DNA from: an uncultured Magnetospirillum sp.
Lineage (GTDB): Bacteria > Pseudomonadota > Alphaproteobacteria > Rhodospirillales > Magnetospirillaceae
Assembly (NCBI RefSeq): GCF_903853455.1
Contig: NZ_CAINTR010000191.1
Span: forward strand, 1-33,795
Direction: 5' to 3'
DNA length: 33,795 nucleotides
The first letter of the stretch is position 1. Each line of letters begins with the position of its first letter. The notes under the pieces were generated by a model that saw nothing but the letters and a program-made list of their open reading frames with translations, did no database searches and had not been told where the DNA came from. The position numbers and the translations under genes were made by a program. Below are positions 1 to 27,326 of the stretch, piece after piece.

Positions 1-22
1 ACCCTCGACGCCGTCAGGCTGG

Positions 23-42
23 AACGGCCCCATGGGGCCGTT
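23..42. repeat. Short perfect hairpin, possibly a weak terminator of an upstream gene
   Basis: Nine-base arms AACGGCCCC and GGGGCCGTT are separated by only two bases, followed by a single extra T. It could end a gene lying before the window, but the missing T-tract makes rho-independent termination doubtful. It sits just before a larger inverted repeat. Confidence 0.4.
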
Positions 43-55
43 TGTCATGCCGCCG

Positions 56-114
56 CCCGCTGGGGCCGGTCTCCATTCGGGGCTCCGCCCCTCCTTACGT
101 CCGGCCCCAGCGGG
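56..114. repeat. Large inverted repeat with nested hairpin
   Basis: A perfect 14-base inverted repeat: CCCGCTGGGGCCGG at 56-69 and CCGGCCCCAGCGGG at 101-114. The loop contains a second small hairpin, GGGGC at 79-83 and GCCCC at 87-91. The structure lies directly upstream of a collar-protein gene that has lost a clear start, so it may belong to a mobile-element end or a REP-like element. Its identity is not established. Confidence 0.6.
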
Positions 115-122
115 CAATCATA

Positions 123-166
123 CCGGCCATCATAGTTGTCGCTCAACCGGCCAAGATAATTGTCGG
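123..166. repeat. Two imperfect 24-bp tandem repeats
   Basis: The unit CCGGCCA(N2)ATA(N)TTGTCG occurs at 123 and again at 147, a period of 24 bases with about three differences over the first 19. Repeated short motifs of this kind occur at the ends of some insertion sequences (the IS21 family is one example recalled), but no transposase is visible here. The repeats abut the region where the following gene should start. Confidence 0.55.
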
Positions 167-178
167 CGGCGAATAGCC

Positions 179-716
179 TATATCGGTCAAATCATGCTGT
201 TCGCCGGCCCCTATCAGGTGCAAGACTGGGTTCCCTGCGATGGCCGCCTGCTGAACGTCAACGACTACGCCGCCTTGTTCGCCATTTTGGGAACGACCTA
301 TGGCGGCAATGGAGTTACCACCTTCGGGATTCCCGACCTGCGAAGCCGCCTGGCGGTGGGTGCCGGTCATGGACCCAACTTGACGATCCGTGCCCTCGGC
401 CAGACGGGCGGCGCGGAGACCGTCACCCTGACCACGGCCACCATGCGAGCCCCACACCCATCCGGTCTATGCCAGCGGAGCACAGGCGACCGCCAACTCG
501 CCCGACGGAAACCTTCCCGCCAGCGTCCCCGCCAATCACATTTTCTACCTTGATCCGCCCAACCCGGTTCCGGCTGGGGTGACCCTTACCCCCACGCCAC
601 TGGGGGCAAGCACGGTCACCGCGCTCGGAGGAAATACCCCCCATGACAACGGGATGCCGAGTCTTGCGATCAACTATCAGATGTGCACCGTCGGACTTTT
701 CCCAGTGCAGTCGTAA
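179..716 (+). pseudogene. Tail-collar-domain protein, frameshifted
   Basis: The translation matches the phage tail collar domain family, typified by a GQIMLFAG start, WxxCDGRLL, an LGTTYGGNGxxTFxxPDLRxR block and a GAGHGPN turn. The reading frame is intact to MRAPHP near 446-458. The expected MPxHTHPVY continuation is then in another frame and runs on to NYQMCTVGLFPVQS and a stop at 714-716. One extra base around 446-452 explains the break. No ATG with a ribosome site precedes residue YIGQ at 179; a TTG at 160 reads into a different frame, so the 5' end may be damaged too. The family is linked to phage-tail-like fibres or surface proteins. It is probably a decaying paralogue of the intact gene that follows; a single sequencing error remains possible. 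Confidence 0.7.
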
Positions 717-1870: not shown

Positions 1871-2698
1871 CTATCGCTCGTAGCTGAGCCGGGTCAGAAC
1901 CGCGCCGTGGTCCGCGACGACGCGCGCCGCCTGCGCCTGGCTCAGCCCCTCGCGCCAGGCGCCGGAGCGTCCCTGACGGAAGAAGCGCTCCATGCCGTCG
2001 GGCTTTTCGCTGAAGCCGCCCGAGGCCTCGGCCGCCTGCAACGCCTCGAAGCGGCACGCCGCCACCGCCCGCGTGATCGATTCCGGGGCGGCCGCCAGTC
2101 CCAGGAACGCCGCCAGCCGGGTGGTTTCGCCCAGTGGATCGGCCATCAGATCCTCGTAGCGCAGCAGCAGCACCGGCACCGCCGTCTGGTCCAGCCAGGA
2201 CGTCACGTTCTCCGACCACGAGCCCATGACCTGCTCCGTCTGCGACCGGAAGCCCCGGATCGACCGCCCGAGGATGAAGCCCGGCCGCCCCATGCGCGCA
2301 ATCGCCTCGTCCACCGAGACGTTCATGTGGTCCCCCCAGGATGGGGCCACGTCGCGGGGGTCGCGGACGACATAGACCGCCCCCGTGGCGACGTCGGGGG
2401 GAAACAGCCGGGGGTCATGGCAATCATGGACCTTGAGGCAGAGCGGCCCCGTGCCGCCCGTCGCCGCCCATTCGCGGCTGGCGACGGGGCGAATCCGGGC
2501 CAGTTCGTCCGGGGTCAGGTCCTCGGTCGGAATGTCCAGCACCTCCTCGAGCCAGGCCCGCGAGGAGCCACTGGGGCAAATCCGGCCCAGCGCGGCCAGA
2601 TCGGGAGCGGCGGCACCGGTGAGAAGGCTGGCGACGAGGCAGCGCACCCAGGTGTTGCCCGATTTGGGGTAGGAGGCGATCCAGAACAGCCCGCTCAT
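1871..2698 (-). CDS. PAPS-dependent sulfotransferase
   Basis: A 275-residue sulfotransferase-domain protein. Residues 10-17 (YPKSGNTW) are the 5'-phosphosulfate-binding loop. VVRDPRDVAPSWGDH is the 3'-phosphate-binding segment, and the RYEDLMADP motif is typical of the family. The enzyme would transfer sulfate from PAPS to a hydroxyl or amine. The start codon overlaps the stop of the HPr-kinase-like gene as ATGA, so the two are translationally coupled, with the B2-like protease gene first in the same operon. The acceptor is unknown: a ribosomally made peptide (by context) or a sugar of the neighbouring polysaccharide are the two reasonable options. The open frame continues far upstream of this start, but that part lies over the kinase gene and is not real. 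Confidence 0.85.
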   Translation of the reverse strand: MSGLFWIASYPKSGNTWVRCLVASLLTGAAAPDLAALGRICPSGSSRAWLEEVLDIPTEDLTPDELARIRPVASREWAATGGTGPLCLKVHDCHDPRLFPPDVATGAVYVVRDPRDVAPSWGDHMNVSVDEAIARMGRPGFILGRSIRGFRSQTEQVMGSWSENVTSWLDQTAVPVLLLRYEDLMADPLGETTRLAAFLGLAAAPESITRAVAACRFEALQAAEASGGFSEKPDGMERFFRQGRSGAWREGLSQAQAARVVADHGAVLTRLSYER

Positions 2699-3600
2699 GA
2701 TGGGAACGCCTCTTCGATCAGCGCCGCCGCCGCCACCAGGGTGTCGAAGCGCTTGGGCCGCTCCAGGCGATAGACCGGCACCGCGCGCGCGATGGCGGCG
2801 GCCTGGGCGAACAGGCCCGCCTGCCGTCCGAGATGGAGCGCCACGCGCGGCCGGAACACGAAGCCTTGCAGCAGCGGAACCGCCGCCGCCGCCGACACCG
2901 CCGACAGCACCGGCCCGGGGCCTTCGCGCAGGACCACGACGCCGCCCAACGGGCCGGGCGCCGGATCGAAGCCGGCGTCCGGGCGCAGGTCGTACTTCTC
3001 CATGTCTTCCCGCACGCGCGGCAGGCCCGAGGCGTCGACGCCCAGCGCGTCCATGGTGTCGCGCCACAGTTTCAGGCGGGGAAAGGCGGGCAGCACCTCG
3101 GCGCCCGCCCCCGGCAGCATCCGCAGCACCGTCACGTCGTCGGACAACAGCCCATGGCCGCGCCGGGTCAGTTCCAGGGCCAGCGTCGACTTGCCGATCC
3201 CGGTATGCCCCGCCACCGCCACCATGCGCCCGCCGATCCGCAGGCTGGCGGCATGCAGCGGGAACAGGCCCCGCTGATGGCACAGAAAGCCAAGCCCCGA
3301 CCCCAGGAGAAACAGGCGCCAGGCCTCCGTCGCCTCCCGCCGCAGGATATCCACCGTAATCGTGGTGCCGCCCTGAACCAGGATACGGACCAATCCCTCG
3401 ATGCGAAGCAGGACCGATCCGTCGGTGCCGACCATGCGGTACGTCCCCGGCAACGCGACGGATTCCAGCCGGTCGGGCACCGGCCCATGGATGACGGTCA
3501 CATCCGGAAGGGCGTCGGCCGGGCCGATCCAGGGTCGTAACTCCGGCAGCGGCAGATCGCTTCGCACCCGCCAGCCGCAGAGCTGGTAATCCTCGGTCAT
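2695..3600 (-). CDS. HPr-kinase-like protein
   Basis: A 301-residue protein related to HPr serine kinase/phosphorylase. A P-loop GHTGIGKST sits at residues 131-139 and an acidic LLSDDV segment near 150, the usual order in this family, preceded by a region ending HAASLRIGGR. The classical HPr target and the PTS are not visible nearby. Homologues in lasso-peptide clusters phosphorylate the C-terminus of the precursor peptide, and related proteins also sit in polysaccharide loci. The start at 3600 was chosen because GGGGAAG lies six bases upstream; an in-frame ATG at 3606 would be too close to it. The gene lies 31 bases after the B2-like gene and its stop overlaps the sulfotransferase start. Confidence 0.75.
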   Translation of the reverse strand: MTEDYQLCGWRVRSDLPLPELRPWIGPADALPDVTVIHGPVPDRLESVALPGTYRMVGTDGSVLLRIEGLVRILVQGGTTITVDILRREATEAWRLFLLGSGLGFLCHQRGLFPLHAASLRIGGRMVAVAGHTGIGKSTLALELTRRGHGLLSDDVTVLRMLPGAGAEVLPAFPRLKLWRDTMDALGVDASGLPRVREDMEKYDLRPDAGFDPAPGPLGGVVVLREGPGPVLSAVSAAAAVPLLQGFVFRPRVALHLGRQAGLFAQAAAIARAVPVYRLERPKRFDTLVAAAALIEEAFPS

Positions 3601-3631
3601 GGACATCTTCCCCAGGGCAGCGGCGGCAAAG

Positions 3632-4084
3632 CTAGCATCGGGACGGGGAGCGGTAAATCGCCACCTGGGTGTACTCGTCCGCCTCGGCGGCACCGGTGAC
3701 CGCGACCTCGGCGCTGGAGCACCAAGCATGGGCCGTCAGTTCCCCCTCCTTGGAGCGGGCTAGGCCGAAATGGATTTCGACCGGCAGCCCCCGGCGCCGC
3801 AGCATGGACGACGCCGCCACCGCCTGCTGCAGGCAGACCGCCCTCAGCGGCAGCCTTCGAGCCGCCCGCGCCACCGCCCGGCCGATCAACCGGGCTTCGG
3901 CGCCATCGTCGCGTCCGGCGGTCTCCGGCGGAAGGTCGAGGCGCAATCCGTGCCAGCGCATGGCCACCCGGAAGGGCAGCGCCGCCAGGGCAAGCCGGGC
4001 CAGCGCCAGGGCAAGCACCGCCTCGATCAGAAGGCGGCGCTCGGCGCCTGGCATGGCCAACACGCGGCGAATGGAACGTCTCAT
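3632..4084 (-). CDS. Lasso-peptide-biosynthesis B2-like protein (transglutaminase-fold protease)
   Basis: A 150-residue protein resembling the lasso peptide B2 / transglutaminase-like family. The N-terminus carries a Leu/Ala-rich helix. The catalytic region shows RAVCLQQA with Cys84, then RRRGLPVEIHFGL and AHAW with His119, ending in YTQVAIYR. In lasso systems B2 removes the leader peptide together with the PqqD-like B1 protein. The third catalytic residue (Asp) is not clear here. The ATG at 4084 has a GAGGAT ribosome site upstream. It is the first gene of a minus-strand operon with the HPr-kinase-like and sulfotransferase genes. No precursor peptide or B1 gene was found between 3600 and 4250, so its target is unknown. 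Confidence 0.75.
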   Translation of the reverse strand: MRRSIRRVLAMPGAERRLLIEAVLALALARLALAALPFRVAMRWHGLRLDLPPETAGRDDGAEARLIGRAVARAARRLPLRAVCLQQAVAASSMLRRRGLPVEIHFGLARSKEGELTAHAWCSSAEVAVTGAAEADEYTQVAIYRSPSRC

Positions 4085-4247: not shown

Positions 4248-6302
4248 ATGATCACTCAGGGAATTGGCGGCAGGGAGTTCGGCGCCTTCGCGTGTCATGT
4301 GGCCGCTTTCGCCGGGCGTCGGCTGTGGGCCGTGGCCCTGCTGGGCATAGCGGCGGCGGGAGCCGAGGGACTGGGGCTGGTGATGCTGGCCCCCCTCCTC
4401 GGCCATCTCGGTATCGCCGGGTCCGGGCAGTGGGTACCGGCCGCGCTGGGCTTGGGAGCCGCCCTGGCCACCTATGTGACGCTGGTGGCGGCCGCCGCGT
4501 TGGTCGTCGCCACCCGCGCCGTCGCCGTGGCAAGGCTGCGCTTCAACTACATGGACGATTTGCGACGACGGGTGCAGGCCGCGCTGTTGTCCATGGAGTG
4601 GCGAAGCTTCAGCCGCCTGCGCGCCTCCGACGCAGCACACATCATGACCACCGAGATCCAGCGCTCGGCCCAAGGTCTGGACTTCCTGCTGCGGCTCGGT
4701 GGTTGGACAGTGGAGATTCTCACGCTCATGGCGGTCGCCTTGCATCTTTCCCCCGCCATGACCGCGCTTTGTCTGGGGCTGGCAGCCCTCGGCGCCGTGC
4801 TGAGCCGTCCGCTGAACCGGCGGGTCCATGCCATGGGCCGTCAAACCGGCGAGGCCATGCGGGCCTTGCACGGCGACATGACCGATGATTTGGCGGGAAT
4901 GCGGTTGCTGCGCGGCCTCGGCCTGGAGACCGAGCGGCAGGCACGGCTGGAGGCGCGGCTGGAGGCGGTTCACCGTAGCCAACTGGCCTCCCAGCGCTGG
5001 GCCGCCCACAGCAGGGCGGCCCAGCAGGTTGTCGCGGCCATGGTCGCCGCCCTGGCGGTGTGGTTTTCAGTAAGGGTGCTGGACAACGCCCTGGCCGACA
5101 CCCTCGTCCTGCTGGCGGCCTTGGCCCGGCTGGTGACGACGACGCTGCGGTTCCAGGACGCCTGGCGGATGGTGCTGAACACCCTGCCCGCCCATGCCGC
5201 CGTCACCGCCTTCCTCGACCAATGCCTGGCCGCCGCCGAGCCGGCCGCCCCGGACGGCGTGACCGACACGCCCCCGCCGGAGTTGAACCGGGGCGTCGAA
5301 CTGGACGACGTGGTCTTTCGCTACGGCCAGGACGGGCCGCCGGCCCTCTCCCACCTCAGCGCCCATATCCCGGCCCGAGCCGTCACCGCGGTGGTGGGAT
5401 CGTCGGGAGCGGGAAAGTCCACCTTGGCCGATCTGCTGTCCGGGCTGGTGGAAGCCAATGGCGGCAGGGTGCTGGTCGACGGGGTGCCACTGGCCGGGGC
5501 GGCGCGCAGGGCCTGGCGGCGGCAGGTGGGCTATGTCCCCCAGGACTGCATCTTGTTCCACGACACCATTCGCGCCAATCTGACCCTGGGAGCGCCAGAA
5601 GCCGGGGATGCGGCGCTATGGTCGGCGCTCGACACCGCCGCCGCCGGCGATTTCGTCCGCGCCCAGCCCCGGGGATTGGACACCATGGTCGGTGACCATG
5701 GCAGCCAGTTCTCCGGCGGCCAGCGCCAACGCCTATGGGCCGCGTCCCCAAGGCGTGGGCCGTTACGGCTGCTGGCCACCGGGCGGCTGGTGGAACGCAA
5801 GAACGTCGATACCCTGCTGGCGGCGCTGGCCCGCCTGCCGGCCCGATGCGAGGTGGTGCTGCGCGTCGGCGGCGATGGCCCCCACCGCGTCCGGCTGGAG
5901 CGGCTGGTCGCCGAGTTGGGGCTGGACAGCAAGGTGGAGTTCGCCGGGTTCATCCAGCCCGACCGCCTGCCCGAGCATCTGGCCTGGGCGGATGTCTACG
6001 CCTTTCCCACAACCCGCGAAGTCTGGGGGATCGTCCTCAACGAGGCGCTGGCCGGGGGGCTGTACGCCCTGGCCTCCACCGATGCCGGCGCCAGCCACGA
6101 CCTGATCGACGAGGGCAACGGCCACCTGCTCGACCCACGCGACCCGGCGGCCTGGACCGCCGCCATCACCCGTTGTGCGGCCGAGCGGGACAGCCTGCGC
6201 CAGGGCCGGTGGGAGCGGGCGGAAGCCGCCATGCGCTTCGACACGGCGGTGATGGCGCCACGGTTCGTGGCGGCCCTTCAATCAGCCGTCGGTCCGTCCT
6301 AG
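4248..6302 (+). CDS. Chimeric ORF: truncated ABC exporter fused to GT4 glycosyltransferase C-terminal domain
   Basis: A 684-residue reading frame made of two unrelated parts. Residues 1 to about 495 are an exporter-type ABC protein: membrane helices, then an ATPase domain with Walker A GSSGAGKST near 384, the Q-loop YVPQDCILFHDT and the signature FSGGQRQRL near 489. Right after this the Walker B, D-loop and H-loop are missing. From about residue 498 the sequence becomes the nucleotide-sugar-binding half of a GT-B glycosyltransferase family 4 protein (LLATGRLVERKNVDTLL, the EVWGIVLNEAL acidic motif), without its N-terminal acceptor half. The join lies near 5735-5755. Neither half should be active. 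A deletion that happened to keep frame is the simplest reading; an assembly join is possible. The start at 4248 has GGGGA upstream; an ATG at 4221 is an alternative. Confidence 0.8.
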   Translation: MITQGIGGREFGAFACHVAAFAGRRLWAVALLGIAAAGAEGLGLVMLAPLLGHLGIAGSGQWVPAALGLGAALATYVTLVAAAALVVATRAVAVARLRFNYMDDLRRRVQAALLSMEWRSFSRLRASDAAHIMTTEIQRSAQGLDFLLRLGGWTVEILTLMAVALHLSPAMTALCLGLAALGAVLSRPLNRRVHAMGRQTGEAMRALHGDMTDDLAGMRLLRGLGLETERQARLEARLEAVHRSQLASQRWAAHSRAAQQVVAAMVAALAVWFSVRVLDNALADTLVLLAALARLVTTTLRFQDAWRMVLNTLPAHAAVTAFLDQCLAAAEPAAPDGVTDTPPPELNRGVELDDVVFRYGQDGPPALSHLSAHIPARAVTAVVGSSGAGKSTLADLLSGLVEANGGRVLVDGVPLAGAARRAWRRQVGYVPQDCILFHDTIRANLTLGAPEAGDAALWSALDTAAAGDFVRAQPRGLDTMVGDHGSQFSGGQRQRLWAASPRRGPLRLLATGRLVERKNVDTLLAALARLPARCEVVLRVGGDGPHRVRLERLVAELGLDSKVEFAGFIQPDRLPEHLAWADVYAFPTTREVWGIVLNEALAGGLYALASTDAGASHDLIDEGNGHLLDPRDPAAWTAAITRCAAERDSLRQGRWERAEAAMRFDTAVMAPRFVAALQSAVGPS

Positions 6303-7365: not shown

Positions 7366-8577
7366 GTGAAGAGCCACAAGATCGCCGTGCACGACTACGC
7401 CGGCCACACCTTTCAGGTTCAGCTCAGCCGCTGGCTCGCCGCCCGGGGCCATCAGGTGCTGCACCTTTATTCCGCCGACGTGGAGACGCCGCGCGGCCGG
7501 CTGTCGCCCGCCGCCACCGATCCCGCCGGCTTCACGGTGGAGTCCGTCACCACCGGCCGGCGCCTGGACAAATACGCCCTGGTCCGGCGCTGGCTGCAGG
7601 AGCGGGCCTATGCCCGGGTCCTGGCCGAGCGGATCGAGGCCTTCGCCCCCGACGTGGTGCTTTCGGCCAACGCTCCGCCGGCGGTCCAGGCCCGGCTGGC
7701 CGCCCGGCTGCGGACGCGGCGCATCCCCCTGGTCTGCTGGGTCCAGGACATCTTCACCCTCGGAGCCGCCAAGCTGGCGGAATCCTGGCCGCCGCCGTTG
7801 CGTCGAGCCGCCCTGTGGGCCCTGGGACGGGTGGAGTTCGGGACCATGCGCCGGGCCGCCGGCCTGGTGGCCATCTCGCCCGACTTCCTCTCCATCCTGG
7901 CCCGCCACGGCGTTCGCCATCCCGCCGCCACGGTGATCGAGAACTGGGCGCCCGCCGACGAGATCCGGCCCGACACCAAGGACAACGACTGGGCCCGGCG
8001 GCACGGCTTGGCCGATTGCTTCTGCTTCCTCTATTCCGGCACCCTGGGAATGAAGCACAATCCCGGCCATCTGGCCGAGCTGGCCCGGACGTTCCGCGAC
8101 GACCCCGCCACCAAGGTGGTGGTGGTCAGCCAGGGATTGGGGCGGCGATGGCTGGAGGAGGTCAAGGCCGCCGAGGGCCTCGACCGACTGATCCTGCTGG
8201 ACTTCCAGCCCTTCGAGAGCCTGCCGCAGGTGCTGGCCAGCGCCGACGTCACCGTGGTGCTGCTGGAGGAATTCGCCGGCGTCCTGTCGGTGCCGTCCAA
8301 GGTCTACAGCTCGTTCTGCGCCCGGCGACCGCTGCTGGCGGCGATGCCGGCGAGCAACCGGGCGGCGCGCCTGATCGAGGAGACCGGGGCCGGGCTATGC
8401 GTGCCGCCCCAAGATGGGGCCGCCTTCGTGGCGGCGGCCCGGCGGCTGCGCCTTGATGCGGCCCTCCGCCATCAGATGGCCGCCCGTCAGGCCGACCATG
8501 CCGCGACCGCCTTCGACATCGAGCTTATCGGTCGGCGTTTTCTCGACGTGCTTGACGCCGCCGTAACGGCCGGCTGA
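7366..8577 (+). CDS. GT4-family glycosyltransferase (WcaI/WbuB-like)
   Basis: A 403-residue GT-B fold glycosyltransferase. The N-terminal half has the GHxxxVQLSRWLAARGHQV start and WVQDIFTLGAAKL, seen in enzymes related to colanic-acid WcaI and WbuB. The C-terminal half has CFLYSGTLGMKHNP, VVVVSQGLG and LPQVLASADVTVVLLEEF, ending with SKVYSSFCARRPLLA and TGAGLCVPP. It would add a sugar to a lipid-linked polysaccharide intermediate at the inner face of the membrane. A GTG start at 7366 was chosen because GGGGAG lies just upstream; a TTG at 7339 lacks this. The last 53 bases overlap the end of the convergent nucleotidyltransferase gene. Confidence 0.85.
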   Translation: MKSHKIAVHDYAGHTFQVQLSRWLAARGHQVLHLYSADVETPRGRLSPAATDPAGFTVESVTTGRRLDKYALVRRWLQERAYARVLAERIEAFAPDVVLSANAPPAVQARLAARLRTRRIPLVCWVQDIFTLGAAKLAESWPPPLRRAALWALGRVEFGTMRRAAGLVAISPDFLSILARHGVRHPAATVIENWAPADEIRPDTKDNDWARRHGLADCFCFLYSGTLGMKHNPGHLAELARTFRDDPATKVVVVSQGLGRRWLEEVKAAEGLDRLILLDFQPFESLPQVLASADVTVVLLEEFAGVLSVPSKVYSSFCARRPLLAAMPASNRAARLIEETGAGLCVPPQDGAAFVAAARRLRLDAALRHQMAARQADHAATAFDIELIGRRFLDVLDAAVTAG

Positions 8578-9694
8578 GGATTCGCCCCAGACGAATGGCG
8601 GGATAAAGCCAAGCCAACGGCCACGGCAACGCCACCACCCCATGGTCGCGGTGAGTAGGCCGCAACGCCGCCGCCGCCACCACCGCCCGCGCCCGCCAAC
8701 CCCGGCGCAGACCCAGATGCCACATCAGATAGCGCGCGCCGCCCATGCCATAGAGTGCCTCGCGGTCGTTGAGGGGGGGAACCGTCCACACCCGCGCCAG
8801 GGCCGATGACGCCCGCTCGGCCATGGACATCAGCCGGGACCGCCGGGCCAGGGCAGCAGGCAGCGGGGCACTCAGCAGGTTGCGGGCCAGCACCGTCGCC
8901 AGCGCCACCATCCGCTCCAGTCCCGTGGCCTCGGCCAGTTCCATCACCCGCTCCCAGTCAATCCCGGGAGCGGCCATGGCCTGGGCGAAATCGGCCACCC
9001 AGAACAGCCGCGCCCACAGATGACGCGTCCCGTGCCAGGCGAGATAGACCAGCAGCGGTTCCAAGGCGGGGCTCTGAACCGGATGGCCGGCGATGTCGAC
9101 CTGGGTGCGGCTACCCCACAGATCGAGGCGATCCTGGGGAAAGTCGTCGAACAGACGCCCCAGATGCCAGTGCAGTTCCACCCAGTGATGGAGCTCGGCA
9201 TGCCTCAATTCGATTTCGCCCTTGGCCAGATCGAAGGGATAAACCGGCCGGTAGTCCTCGGCCTCCAAGCAGGCCAAGGCCCGCTCCACCGACTCGGGAC
9301 GGACCAGCAGGTCCAGGTCCCGCGACGGCCGCAACCCGCCGGTGCGCAGCATGGCGGCCAGGGTCGGTCCCTTGAACGCCAGATAATCCACCTCCCCGGC
9401 TTCAAGAGCCTTGGCCAGCCGGACCAGCTCGGCCGCCCGGGTCATTCCCCTCAGCCGCGCCCGCCGCACCATCCCGAGCAGCCGGTCACGCATGGCCTCG
9501 GGCATCGCGCCGGCCTCGGGAATCGGCATTCCCGCTTCCGCCGCCGCTCGGTGATGGGCCACCACCCCCAGCCATGCCTCCCACTCCACACCCGGGGGCG
9601 GCATCCGCCCCCGGCCAGCCAGGATCTCCAGCACCGACCCGATTTCCGGCGGCAACTGGTCCGGACGGAGGCCCTTGCCGGCAAAGCGGCTCAT
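8525..9694 (-). CDS. Nucleotidyltransferase-family protein (NTP_transf_5 type)
   Basis: A 389-residue protein of the uncharacterized nucleotidyltransferase family found in polysaccharide and lasso-peptide loci. The core signature is YLAFKGPTLAAML followed by RPSRDLDLLV, with the catalytic-type Asp pair. A conserved ELHWHL and a WVADFAQA segment follow. The C-terminal tail is Arg-rich. In one described lasso peptide system such a protein adds nucleotides to a phosphorylated peptide; in polysaccharide loci the role is unknown. The start overlaps the stop of the O-antigen ligase gene (ATGA). The same frame is open much further upstream, but that part is a shadow of the ligase gene. Confidence 0.8.
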   Translation of the reverse strand: MSRFAGKGLRPDQLPPEIGSVLEILAGRGRMPPPGVEWEAWLGVVAHHRAAAEAGMPIPEAGAMPEAMRDRLLGMVRRARLRGMTRAAELVRLAKALEAGEVDYLAFKGPTLAAMLRTGGLRPSRDLDLLVRPESVERALACLEAEDYRPVYPFDLAKGEIELRHAELHHWVELHWHLGRLFDDFPQDRLDLWGSRTQVDIAGHPVQSPALEPLLVYLAWHGTRHLWARLFWVADFAQAMAAPGIDWERVMELAEATGLERMVALATVLARNLLSAPLPAALARRSRLMSMAERASSALARVWTVPPLNDREALYGMGGARYLMWHLGLRRGWRARAVVAAAALRPTHRDHGVVALPWPLAWLYPAIRLGRILSRPLRRRQARRENADR

Positions 9695-10905
9695 CGTGGA
9701 ACGAGCGGTGTCGGAGACGGTGCCACCTCGGCCATGCCGGCGAAGGTGATCAGGAAGAACACGGCCGACAGAGGGTTGCCGGCATTGACCGCCCGGCCCT
9801 CGAAAATCCCATAGACCCAGTACACCACCACCGCCGTCACCAAGGTGGTGGCGGCGTTGCGCTGGCCCTGCCGGAACAGCCGACGGCCGTGCATCAGGCA
9901 TATGGCCGAAAACGCCGTGAACCCCAGCAAACCCAGCAGGCCGGTGTCGGCAAGAAGGATCAGGACCATGTTGTGGGCATAGGTGCCCATGCCCAACACC
10001 TCGGTATGCTGGCCGTAGCCAACGCCAAACAATAGGTTCTCGGTCCACAGGTTCCAGGTGGCCTTCCACAATTCGGTGCGGTCGGTGAAGCCGCTGTCCA
10101 GGCCGCGATTGCTGTCGTCGATCATCAGGACTTCGTCTTGCAGGAACTCCAGCGCCGAAGTGCTGCGGGCCATGTAGACAAGCACCAGCAGGCCAGCCAT
10201 CCCCAGCATCAGGATCGCCCGCTTCCGTTCCGGAGTGAGCGGGCCGGACAGACGGCCCAGGCAGGCGCACAGCACCGCCGCCGCGATGCTCAGCAGTCCG
10301 GCCCGCGATTCCACCACCAGGGAAATGCCGAAGGCGGCGGCGAAGACCAGCCCCATCAGGGCGGTGCGCCGTATGCCCACCGCCGCCACGCCCATGACCG
10401 TCCCCATCAGGCCGATATAATTGGGATGCAGGTTGATGCCTTCGAAATCGAACGAATTGCGCCGGTCCAGCAGGGCCTCGAGCAGGTCTCCTTCCGCCGC
10501 TTCGTGCAGCACGATGATCGCCGCCACTCCCATCCACAGGATCATCTGATTGAACATGCTCCGCGAGCTTTCCTCCAGGGGAGAGGACAGGACCAGCGGC
10601 GCGAATACGGCATAGCAGGCGATCACCACCAGATTTTCCAACCGCGGATCCTCGGGACGGTTGACCAGGGTGCTGAGCAGGATGGGCACCACCAGCAGCA
10701 AACTGGTCAAGCCGATGCGCCCCAAGGCCGCCAGGTTCAGCCGTTCGAAGGAACCGGCCGCCACCAGCAAGGTAAGACAGCCGATCAAGGCGCCGTACAC
10801 CAGACGCCAGTCCTCTCCCATCATCATCAGGACCGGGATCACGGAAATGGCCGCCGCCACGAGGGTGCGCGAGACCAGAAGAACGGGGGGGGATTGAGCG
10901 GTCAT
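9691..10905 (-). CDS. O-antigen ligase / Wzy-type polymerase family membrane protein
   Basis: A 404-residue polytopic membrane protein with about ten or more hydrophobic segments. Conserved points of the Wzy_C family are the ESRAGLLSIAA segment near the middle and LLFGVGYGQHTEVLGMGTYAHNM, with the GxGxGxH and HN pattern in the periplasmic loop. This family polymerizes repeat units or ligates glycans to a lipid in the periplasm. A GGAGG ribosome site precedes the ATG. Its start overlaps the stop of a 25-codon ORF and its end overlaps the nucleotidyltransferase start, so it is inside a tightly coupled minus-strand operon. A second, IS-interrupted member of the family lies at 12883-15731. Confidence 0.85.
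   Translation of the reverse strand: MTAQSPPVLLVSRTLVAAAISVIPVLMMMGEDWRLVYGALIGCLTLLVAAGSFERLNLAALGRIGLTSLLLVVPILLSTLVNRPEDPRLENLVVIACYAVFAPLVLSSPLEESSRSMFNQMILWMGVAAIIVLHEAAEGDLLEALLDRRNSFDFEGINLHPNYIGLMGTVMGVAAVGIRRTALMGLVFAAAFGISLVVESRAGLLSIAAAVLCACLGRLSGPLTPERKRAILMLGMAGLLVLVYMARSTSALEFLQDEVLMIDDSNRGLDSGFTDRTELWKATWNLWTENLLFGVGYGQHTEVLGMGTYAHNMVLILLADTGLLGLLGFTAFSAICLMHGRRLFRQGQRNAATTLVTAVVVYWVYGIFEGRAVNAGNPLSAVFFLITFAGMAEVAPSPTPLVPR

Positions 10906-10975: not shown

Positions 10976-10979
<4 letters not shown>
10902..10979 (-). CDS. 25-residue translationally coupled ORF
   Basis: A tiny ORF between asnB and the ligase gene. Its ATG overlaps the asnB stop (ATGA) and its TGA overlaps the ligase ATG (ATGA). 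A strong AGGAGGTGG ribosome site lies inside the end of asnB at the right distance. The peptide begins MNEPRRFPPASWLRGRDW and is basic with two Trp residues. It does not look like a lasso precursor: no leader Thr-Gly pattern and no ring Asp/Glu after a Gly. It may be a coupling peptide that carries ribosomes from asnB to the ligase gene, a remnant of a longer protein, or a functional small protein. No family was recognised. Confidence 0.5.
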
Positions 10980-12805
<1,826 letters not shown>

Positions 12806-13420: not shown

Positions 13421-13708
13421 ATGGGCCAGGTTCGCAAGAAGCACAATTCCGAATTCAAGGCGAAGGTTGCCATTGCGGCCTTGAAGGGAGACACGACGAT
13501 TGCCGAATTGTCGAGTAGGTACGGCGTGCATGCCAGCCAAATCCATGCGTGGAAGAAGGCCCTGCTGGATGGGGCGGGGACGCTGTTCGGGGTCGGCAAG
13601 CCGTCGTTCTCGGACAAGTGCGACGAAGCCAAGTTGGCGGAGCTGTACGCGAAAATCGGCGAGCTGACGGTGGAGCGGGATTTTTTGCAACGGAGGCCAA
13701 AGCTATGA
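13421..13708 (+). CDS. IS3-family transposase OrfA
   Basis: A 95-residue helix-turn-helix protein starting at an ATG preceded by AGGAG; an in-frame GTG at 13397 has no such site. KKHNSEFKAKVAIAALKG, the recognition helix region ELSSRYGVHASQIHAWKK and the C-terminal ERDFL leucine-zipper end are typical of IS3-family OrfA, which binds the element ends. Its stop codon overlaps an ATG of orfB, and a slippery heptamer at 13681-13687 should allow a -1 shift to give the OrfAB fusion transposase. Confidence 0.9.
   Translation: MGQVRKKHNSEFKAKVAIAALKGDTTIAELSSRYGVHASQIHAWKKALLDGAGTLFGVGKPSFSDKCDEAKLAELYAKIGELTVERDFLQRRPKL
13681..13687 (+). promoter_or_regulatory. Programmed -1 frameshift site
   Basis: In the orfA frame the heptamer reads T_TTT_TTG, a classic slippery pattern. 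A -1 slip continues into the orfB frame as FFATEAKAM. It sits eight codons before the orfA stop, the normal place for IS3-family frameshifting. Confidence 0.75.
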
Positions 13709-14736
13709 GGCGCCCGGCGCGGCTGTCCATGGTCAATCGTAGGCACCCGTCGCTATCGGTCGTGCGTCAGTGTCGGTTGCTCGATCTGGCGCGCTCGTCG
13801 GTTTATTATCGGCCAGTGCCGATGGCCCCCGCCGACCTTGCGCTGATGCGGCGCATCGACGAGCAGTACCTGAAGACGCCGTTCATCGGCTCTCGGCGGA
13901 TGGTGGAGATGCTGGAGCGTCAGGGGCATCCAACAAATCGCAAGCGCGTGCAGCGGATGATGCGGCTAATGGGAATACAAGCAATTTACCAGAAGCCTAA
14001 TACCAGCAAAAAACACCCTGACCATGAGATATTTCCGTACCTACTGCGCAACGTTATTATCGACCGCGTAAATCATGTTTGGTGCGCTGACATAACCTAT
14101 ATTCCGATGCGAAGCGGCTTTCTATATCTAGTCGCCATCATGGACTGGGCAAGCCGAATGGTATTGGCGTGGCGGCTGTCCAATACAATGGATGCCGACT
14201 TCTGCGTTGAGGCTCTGGAGGAGGCGATTTCCCGGCATGGTCGCCCCGAAATTTTCAACACCGACCAAGGAAGCCAGTTCACCGGCCACGACTTCACCGG
14301 CGTGCTGAAGCGCGAAGGCATCAAGATCAGCATGGATGGCAAAGGCCGCTTCATGGACAACATCTTCATCGAACGCCTATGGCGGAGCGTGAAGTACGAG
14401 GAGGTGTTCATCAAGGCATACGCAACGGTGGCCGAGGCGCGGGCCGGGATCGGCAACTATTTGGCGTTCTATAACAATGAGCGGCCGCACCAAGCACTGG
14501 GCTACCGCACGCCGCGCGAAACGTTCGAGGGCGGCCTGTGGATATGTGGACGATCGGCTTCGCCGAACGACTGCGCTTCCCCCGTGTTCCCGGCCAAGAC
14601 CGGAAAAACGGGGAAATGCTCGCCTTCGCCCACATCTCCACAGGCCCAACAACAGCAGCCAAAGGTTTATATAAATGGATTTGAAAAGGTGGTAGAAAGT
14701 AAGCAGATGCCGCCCGCTGTGCGGGTGGTCGCGTAG
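13705..14736 (+). CDS. IS3-family transposase OrfB (DDE integrase domain)
   Basis: The catalytic part of the transposase, normally made as OrfAB by frameshifting at 13681-13687. If translated alone it starts at the ATG at 13705, which overlaps the orfA stop (ATGA). The first part is an HTH-like region (SVVRQCRLLDLARSSVYY). The DDE core follows: Asp in VWCADITYIP, Asp in NTDQGSQFT and Glu in FIERLWRSVKYEE, with YNNERPHQALGYRTP after it. About 60 Pro/Ser/Gln-rich residues extend past the usual core end. All three catalytic residues are present and no frameshift is visible, so the element may be active. Confidence 0.9.
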   Translation: MRRPARLSMVNRRHPSLSVVRQCRLLDLARSSVYYRPVPMAPADLALMRRIDEQYLKTPFIGSRRMVEMLERQGHPTNRKRVQRMMRLMGIQAIYQKPNTSKKHPDHEIFPYLLRNVIIDRVNHVWCADITYIPMRSGFLYLVAIMDWASRMVLAWRLSNTMDADFCVEALEEAISRHGRPEIFNTDQGSQFTGHDFTGVLKREGIKISMDGKGRFMDNIFIERLWRSVKYEEVFIKAYATVAEARAGIGNYLAFYNNERPHQALGYRTPRETFEGGLWICGRSASPNDCASPVFPAKTGKTGKCSPSPTSPQAQQQQPKVYINGFEKVVESKQMPPAVRVVA

Positions 14737-26406: not shown

Positions 26407-26441
26407 CCCGGCCATTGCTCTTGCGGAAGGGGCGCCGCGAC

Positions 26442-27326
26442 ATGGCCGGTTGGGACGGGTTCAAGGCCGGGCTGCGCAAGATGCCGGGCTTTGGCGTCCT
26501 GCGCTTCATGGTCCATCTGGCGCGGGGCGGCGACGCGCGCGGCCTGGCGCTGCTGCGCCTGCGGCCCCGGGACAATCTGTTCCAGCCCTATCCCAACACT
26601 TGGCCGGACCGCTATCCCGACCTTTTCCGGGCGGTCCGCGAGCGGGTCGGCGACGGCGACGGCCGTCGCATCCTGTCGTTCGGCTGCTCCACCGGCGAGG
26701 AGGTGTTCACGCTCCGCCGCCATTTTGCCCGGGCCGCCATCACCGGCCTCGACATCAACCCCTACAACATCGCGCTATGCCGTGCCCGCGCCCTGTGGCG
26801 GCGGCAAGCCATGTTGGATTTCAGGGTCGCCGGGTCCGCCGAACGGGAGTGCGACGCCAGCTATGACGCCATCTTCGCCATGGCGGTGTTCCGCCATGGC
26901 GACCTCAATCTCTCGCCGCCGCCGCAACGCTGCGACCATCGTCTTCGCTTCGCCGATTTCGAAACCACCGTCGCCGATCTGAGCCGCTGCCTGAAGCCGG
27001 GGGGCGTGCTGGTCTTGGCCCATTGCCACTTCCGCCTCGGCGACACCGCCTCGGCGGGAAATTTCGCCTCCCTTCAACGGTGGGACAGCGGCCTTGCCCA
27101 ACCGCTCTACGGCCGAGACAACCGCCTTCTCGCCAAAGCCGCCGGCGACGAGGGCATTTTCATCAAGATCGAATGCCCCTCCCCCGTGGATGGCTCCAGG
27201 TTGGCCTACGAGAGCGGCGTTGATCGGTTTCGATCAACCCATTTTGGCATCAGTCCGGCCAGCGGCGGTGGAGCCACAGCCACTGCCCCGGCTGGGCCCG
27301 GACCCAGCGTTCGACGGTGGCGTTGA
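26442..27326 (+). CDS. Class I SAM-dependent methyltransferase
   Basis: A 294-residue protein. ILSFGCSTGEEVFTLRRHF near residue 72 resembles the motif of CheR-like and related methyltransferases, followed by ITGLDINPYNIALCRARA, YDAIFAMAVFRHGD and DLSRCLKPGGVLVLAHCHFR. The acceptor is unknown. ATG 26442 is preceded by GGAAGGGG; a TTG at 26415 is an alternative. The last 77 bases run antisense through the conserved WLHRRW end of the convergent acyltransferase gene and encode a Gly/Ala/Pro-rich tail, so the original stop may have been lost. Confidence 0.75.
   Translation: MAGWDGFKAGLRKMPGFGVLRFMVHLARGGDARGLALLRLRPRDNLFQPYPNTWPDRYPDLFRAVRERVGDGDGRRILSFGCSTGEEVFTLRRHFARAAITGLDINPYNIALCRARALWRRQAMLDFRVAGSAERECDASYDAIFAMAVFRHGDLNLSPPPQRCDHRLRFADFETTVADLSRCLKPGGVLVLAHCHFRLGDTASAGNFASLQRWDSGLAQPLYGRDNRLLAKAAGDEGIFIKIECPSPVDGSRLAYESGVDRFRSTHFGISPASGGGATATAPAGPGPSVRRWR

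Follow-up and report, generated by a model that had tools for sequence, protein, structure and literature searches.

Genes of the window

The window, by which we mean the whole 33,795-nucleotide stretch of DNA analyzed here (G000:C191:1-33795), belongs to a genome assembled as 5.18 Mb in 223 contigs. Three minus-strand genes between positions 1871 and 4084 encode a PAPS-type sulfotransferase (ST), an HPr-kinase-like protein (K), and a B2-type leader peptidase (B2), in agreement with the position, strand, and families reported in the first-pass annotation. These and the other relevant features are listed below, with comparisons to the complete related genome G039 where available.

1–172, no strand: insertion-sequence end at the contig start, repeated in the same genome; boundary set from 12 other copies
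173–716, plus: tail-collar gene tcB, broken (PF07484, 81.7 bits on window positions 2–553)
744–1349, plus: tail-collar gene tcA (PF07484, 69.1 bits, cut-off 24)
1307–1867, plus: GNAT acetyltransferase gene, start codon uncertain (PF00583, 52.9 bits, cut-off 20.7)
1871–2698, minus: PAPS-type sulfotransferase gene, ST (PF00685, 89 bits, cut-off 22; 58% to the G039 copy)
2695–3606, minus: HPr-kinase-like gene, K (PF07475, 33.2 bits; 58% to the G039 copy)
3632–4084, minus: B2-type leader peptidase gene, B2 (NF033537, 79.4 bits, cut-off 33; PF13471, 88 bits)
4248–5735, plus: exporter-type ABC gene, truncated just beyond the signature motif (47% to the G039 ABC gene)
5736–6302, plus: in-frame fusion partner of the ABC gene, the C-terminal half of a GT4 glycosyltransferase gene (PF00534, 92.7 bits, ORF residues 698–840)
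8525–9694, minus: NTP_transf_5 gene, N (PF14907, 159 bits, cut-off 31.2)
9691–10905: O-antigen-ligase family gene (PF04932, profile match)
26415–27326, plus: methyltransferase gene (PF08241, 40.7 bits; 50% to the G039 fusion)

The three minus-strand genes are tightly packed, with 25 bases separating the end of the B2 gene from the start of the K gene and a 4-bp overlap between the end of the latter and the start of the ST gene. B2 is the sole match to PF13471 returned by a profile search of its genome. Its residues Cys84 and His119, to which the earlier annotation had drawn attention, are invariant in 47 of 47 aligned B2 sequences, and its predicted structure has a model pLDDT of 90.8; the Cys and His expected of a protease triad are thus retained. 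The family match of K is marginal, falling just below the PF07475 cut-off (33.2 against 33.3 bits). Nevertheless, K carries the His-Lys-Asp-Asp residues described for lasso kinases in the available passages of PMC9266682, the positions (His118, Lys139, Asp156, and Asp157) being assigned in the present alignment (A1), where all four are invariant in 11 of 11 sequences. On the HPr kinase/phosphorylase model, K scores far below the cut-off (TIGR00679, 33 bits over residues 117–163, cut-off 240), and its membership in an HPr-rel-A/B cassette was rejected (TIGR04352 and TIGR04355, 30.3 and 31.7 bits, respectively, cut-off 200).

Several neighboring genes also have counterparts in related loci. The GNAT protein is 51% to the GNAT adjoining a trio of tail-collar genes in G039, and the NTP_transf_5 family recurs near related cassettes. 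The methyltransferase gene lies 22 kb from B2 in the window, whereas in G039 a member of its family forms a fusion with B2. Matches to this family were found in six of 103 scanned sources (L029, L037, L041, L080, L211, and the window), all of which have cassette genes; however, four of the six had served to build the model, which leaves L080 and L211 as the independent cases. The encoded protein may be a further tailoring enzyme. The gene at 10976–12805 was considered as a lasso cyclase gene and rejected, its best model being that of ordinary Asn synthase (415.5 bits over 267.1), although its 292.2 bits on the lasso cyclase model, below the cut-off of 525, exceed the 250.7 bits of the cyclase-like gene described below.

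Contig C170, related cassettes, and the candidate precursor

As the first-pass annotation had observed, neither a precursor nor a PqqD gene is found in the window. Candidates for both are present on another contig of the same genome, C170, which came to light in genus-wide searches for PqqD and the G039 cyclase-like protein; the earlier suggestion that the precursor and B1 might lie elsewhere is supported by this contig. Its gene order is insertion-sequence end, tail-collar gene tcC, a 52-aa ORF, a cyclase-like gene, and a PqqD/B1 gene. The PqqD gene is the only match to PF05402 in the genome (60.8 bits, cut-off 23.4), and its best NCBIfam model is lasso_PqqD, at 64.9 bits under a cut-off of 80. 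The neighboring gene scores 250.7 bits on the lasso cyclase model NF033535 (cut-off 525) versus 133.2 bits on Asn synthase, and its product is 63% identical to the cyclase-like protein of the G039 cassette. We take this gene as the candidate for the cyclase on three grounds: its best-scoring model is the lasso cyclase, it follows the precursor ORF, and it is similar to the G039 gene.

Within the family, 14 of 55 genomes have a B2 relative, that of G033 being weak and stop-containing, and nine of 17 genomes of the genus, including the present one, have a relative of K, in some cases only as a short Walker-region match. The fullest cassette is that of G039 (4,967,148 bases), where approximately 11 kb accommodate K, ST, an unassigned gene, GNAT and a tail-collar trio, together with a precursor-like ORF, cyclase-like and PqqD genes, B2 fused to a methyltransferase, and an ABC gene of full length. 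G021 (4,365,796 bases) likewise carries the cassette; other genomes hold subsets of its genes in other orders. The search of relatives proposed in the first-pass annotation thus recovered B2, HprK, and ST genes beside a PqqD gene, a lasso-cyclase-like gene, and a precursor with a W..P motif and a C-terminal Ser, in G039 with an intact ABC gene; orthologous cassettes do neighbor both precursor and B1 genes. Among 85 sources mapped, K matches reach at least 120 bits in 48, of which 23 also contain ST. K and ST are adjacent and on the same strand in 22 of the 23 ST loci, most of which have B1, B2, or cyclase matches nearby. In Proteobacteria, then, the K-ST gene pair travels with lasso-type genes.

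The 52-aa ORF on C170 (L075:1233-1391) has the features of a kinase-type lasso precursor, namely a W..P leader, Thr at position -2, Asp8 in the core, and a C-terminal Ser. The predicted core lacks Tyr, and its residue 1 would be Thr, which is unusual for lasso peptides. The sequence matches no family model, including that of paeninodin (NF033524, cut-off 27), on which the G039 and G021 precursors score 12.7 and 12.1 bits, respectively.

To survey precursors more broadly, we took 20 cyclase-like genes scoring at least 550 bits and sought a small ORF with the W..P motif on the same strand within 600 bases upstream. Eighteen loci were testable, since L039 has no upstream sequence and the L176 precursor is identical to that of L086. 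Such an ORF was present in 17 of the 18, the miss being L080, where the candidate flanks the cyclase gene on its opposite side; these counts come from related, non-independent loci, with threshold and motif chosen after ten of the 18 had been seen. The nearest ORF ends in Ser in 16 of the 17 cases, the exception (L036) ending in Asp; extra motif-bearing ORFs located farther off in some loci were left uncounted. By comparison, a C-terminal Ser occurs in 63 of 510 small ORFs that carry the motif at other positions of these loci and in 762 of 7983 among all small ORFs. The eight loci outside the discovery set (L080, L086, L174, L175, L177, L178, L179, and L212) gave an ORF in seven cases, all seven ending in Ser. 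When the threshold was lowered to at least 300 bits, any W..P ORF was found in the zone for only 25 of 56 cyclase-like genes, some of these ORFs being implausible.

The resulting table comprises 20 proteobacterial precursors (those of the 17 loci plus L080). Nineteen end in Ser, none has a Tyr after the W..P motif, and 13 combine Thr(-2) with an acidic residue at positions 7–9; the remaining seven offer no such option, one of them (L036) lying outside the range scanned. Further candidates, next to less similar cyclases, were not tabulated; those of L183, L091, and L093 have a C-terminal Ser, those of L112 and L123 a C-terminal Thr, and that of L186 a C-terminal Val, while that of L084 has no acidic core residue. 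Tyr is present in the Sphingomonadales candidate precursors L081 and L083. Bacillota loci that came up in the same search carry precursors of 51.5 and 59.3 bits on the paeninodin model (cut-off 27) that bear the W..P motif and a C-terminal Ser, providing a positive control.

Proposed pathway and alternative readings

The gene content, family matches, and recurring precursor pattern described above are best read as those of a kinase-type lasso peptide biosynthetic cluster, and the three minus-strand genes are probably its tailoring part. The first-pass proposal, namely that these genes form the tailoring half of a lasso-type system for a peptide bearing phosphate and/or sulfate, finds support in the gene sets of relatives and in C170, and the formerly orphan trio can be assigned to a definable cluster whose precursor is testable. 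By analogy with characterized systems, the PqqD-like B1 would bind the 52-aa precursor via its W..P leader, and K would phosphorylate the C-terminal Ser of the linear precursor. Removal of the leader by B2 would occur after Thr(-2)-Ala(-1), with the cyclase-like protein linking residue 1 to Asp8 and an ABC protein exporting the product. ST may add a sulfate, probably on a Ser/Thr or on the modified C-terminus, since the predicted core is devoid of Tyr; Tyr is ruled out as a target for this predicted core only. The available literature passages describe no sulfated lasso peptide, so the target of ST is a guess. While the gene sets can be read directly from the assemblies, we infer the adjacency of the two contigs, the topology of the product, and its sulfation. 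Because G039 is a complete genome with all of the parts, it makes this chemistry testable. The [M+H]+ calculated for the dehydrated core is 1455.598 in G039 (1535.565 when phosphorylated, 1535.555 when sulfated, and 1615.521 when both groups are present) and 1502.672 in this strain, so that the phosphate and sulfate forms would be 9.5 mDa apart.

In this strain, the cluster itself looks damaged: the exporter is truncated and one tail-collar gene is broken. A divergent exporter-type ABC gene is indeed present, as first annotated, but it is incomplete and glycosyltransferase-fused. Its ORF resembles ABC exporters only to approximately nucleotide 5735 and then runs in frame into the C-terminal half of the glycosyltransferase, which is not itself part of the peptide system. 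It aligns with the full-length G039 ABC protein up to residue 534 of 620 at 47% identity; the next best match to the latter in the genome reaches only 32%, and an intact exporter (D) was not found there. An insertion sequence also interrupts the 5' end of tcB, inside which there is a frame change, and both contigs begin with insertion-sequence ends. Production or export of the peptide may therefore fail here. Quite possibly, the locus is a decaying remnant: an insertion sequence would have disrupted a tail-collar gene and split the locus, and a deletion would have joined the exporter gene to the glycosyltransferase gene, leaving no exported product. However, the reading frames of ST, K, B2, the precursor, the cyclase, and PqqD are all open, and the ABC-glycosyltransferase fusion could be either a true deletion or an assembly join. 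Such decay would be compatible with a kinase-type lasso peptide pathway as the best explanation for the cassettes of relatives.

A second question concerns topology. The product could be a macrolactam or another non-threaded RiPP rather than a true lasso peptide, as might be suggested by the small, hydrophilic cores, which lack obvious bulky plug residues, and by the score of the cyclase-like protein, which is far under the lasso cyclase cut-off. Nonetheless, the lasso cyclase is still the best-matching model for this protein, and the kinase, B1, and B2 resemble their lasso-system counterparts; we regard a non-threaded product as possible but rather doubtful.

The lasso-type reading also draws on the relationship between C170 and the window, which were likely, although not certainly, neighbors at one time. 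Window bases 1–172 have at least 34 matches in the genome (40 of 72 candidates scored) and C170 bases 1–137, also an insertion-sequence end, at least 35 (40 candidates scored), many of them at contig ends in both cases. Because their motif and copy number are similar, the two would represent the two ends of one element. Of the three PF07484 matches in the genome, the window end carries two and the C170 end the third; in G039, the three tail-collar genes are contiguous. Moreover, a start codon located 23 bp beyond tcC is followed directly by the insertion sequence on C170, and on the window side the sequence is taken up again within the first codons of tcB. Alternatively, the contigs could represent separate loci, each ending at a different insertion-sequence copy. 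The large copy number of each end permits many pairings, and no exact target-site duplication of 4–10 bp is common to the two ends, leaving adjacency by a simple single insertion unproven; among the compared insertion-sequence copies, only one 6-base and one 9-base pairing appeared, so that no single duplication length stands out. The split of the collar trio and the fit of the two gene ends nevertheless render separate loci unlikely, and a pattern search for an alternative partner of C170 returned only an unrelated contig. More generally, genes that appear to be missing from a fragmented assembly may sit just across an insertion sequence.

Finally, action of ST, and perhaps K, on an exopolysaccharide of the neighboring genes instead of a peptide is improbable: an O-antigen-ligase family gene does lie at 9691–10905, and polysaccharide genes like those of the window (gene names assigned in the present analysis) adjoin the cassette in L029, L030/L079, and L032, but K and ST are paired in nearly all ST loci, mostly near B1, B2, or cyclase matches, the precursor C-terminal Ser is conserved, and we know of no role for K or B2 on sugars. 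The PF00685 match of ST does not by itself discriminate between sugar and other acceptors.

Relation to known clusters and the tail-collar module

The locus is a variant of known kinase-type lasso clusters. Among the closest systems is SyanA/SyanK from Sphingobium yanoikuyae, a proteobacterial system in which an HPr-kinase homolog, accompanied by lasso genes, acts on a precursor with a C-terminal Ser (passages of PMC8498205 and PMC9266682). Compared by these descriptions, the present cluster adds an overlapping ST gene, a collar trio with GNAT, and possibly a methyltransferase. The kinase, cyclase, B1, B2, N, and ABC genes, the W..P leader, and the C-terminal Ser are also shared with the paeninodin family (PadeA/K/C/B1/B2/D) and with pseudomycoidin, whose cluster includes N. 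Unlike paeninodin-family precursors, however, the present one is unmatched by NF033524, and those of G039 and G021 fall below its cut-off; furthermore, the eight Bacillota kinase loci on our tree have neither a sulfotransferase nor a collar trio. A putative sulfotransferase gene does occur beside lasso genes in some Firmicutes clusters, as a passage of PMC8498205 notes, whereas here the ST gene is tied to a kinase gene and found in Proteobacteria. The literature passages retrieved describe neither a sulfated lasso peptide nor a product of such a sulfotransferase. For magnetospirilla, a passage of PMC8262917 mentions a putative lasso peptide of Magnetospirillum gryphiswaldense predicted by antiSMASH, with no gene-level description; the class itself is thus not new. 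The less expected parts are the kinase-sulfotransferase pairing in Proteobacteria and the link to tail-collar genes.

This link places a collar module of so far no known function beside lasso-type genes. No paper in the collection searched connects tail-collar proteins to lasso peptides or to PqqD, and none pairs the tail-collar domain with the microcystin-dependent protein. Cassette loci of magnetospirilla-like genomes and Sphingomonadales contain three collar genes, in most cases accompanied by GNAT, and cassette loci of Chitinophagaceae (L099 and L103) have the collar module without a sulfotransferase. Two or more collar genes are present in 10 of 23 ST loci versus two of 25 other kinase loci (Fisher p 0.007). 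Independent pairs on the kinase tree gave no support for a collar-ST association, which was therefore dropped in favor of co-location alone; on the same tree, the collar label needs five changes, at least four of them by well-supported branches. In addition, among 18 further stretches, the module with GNAT stands alone in seven (L204-L209 and L218, some of them short contigs), and four (L211-L214) have cassette genes. Since the collar genes and GNAT also occur without cassette genes, the module is not dedicated to the peptide system.

Any role of the collar proteins and GNAT in the peptide system is guesswork. One speculative and unlikely scenario is that they are working partners of a sulfated, phosphorylated lasso-type peptide, with the collars carrying, displaying, or receiving it. 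If true, a phage-tail-like surface fiber and a RiPP would form one system common to magnetospirilla-like, Sphingomonadales, and Chitinophagaceae genomes. The C-terminal Ser of collar proteins was also considered as a kinase target and rejected, as none of the three G039 collars ends in Ser. Across the collar rows, a C-terminal Ser is found in nine of 48 cassette-linked and 0 of 40 stand-alone sequences, a count that skipped four of 52 linked and two of 42 stand-alone rows as too long or weak and in which L213 and L214 appear to be near-copies.

Genes adjoining the cassettes

In the related genome G021, a gene for a 2OG-Fe(II) oxygenase (PF13640, 62.7 bits) lies after that of the B2 leader peptidase, and its product is a possible candidate for a hydroxylating tailoring enzyme. 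In the cassette locus of G039 (L029), B2 is found fused to a methyltransferase, whose family also occurs, unfused, in the window (26415-27326). A further protein family, of about 250-280 aa, adjoins the cassettes; searches of Pfam and NCBIfam with its L029 member returned no match.

L030 10200-10988: 2OG-Fe(II) oxygenase
L029 12733-13965: methyltransferase-B2 fusion
L029 6869-7618, L040 6994-7842, L084 near 8874: family of about 250-280 aa

Modules combining a tail-collar (PF07484) trio with a GNAT acetyltransferase also stand alone, without nearby cassette genes, in stretches (L204-L209, L218) from the same bacterial family as the window.

Contig ends and junctions

Insertion sequence ends, present in at least 34-35 copies, were located at the following positions, and many contigs of the same genome stop at such ends.

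Window 1-172: insertion sequence end
L075 (contig C170, same genome) 1-137: insertion sequence end

At window 5712-5760, a truncated ABC exporter runs on in frame into a GT4 glycosyltransferase's C-terminal half; this fusion either stems from a deletion or was created when the contig was assembled. Among the polysaccharide genes, reading the sequence by eye suggests a transposase-like ORF (window 13549-14736).
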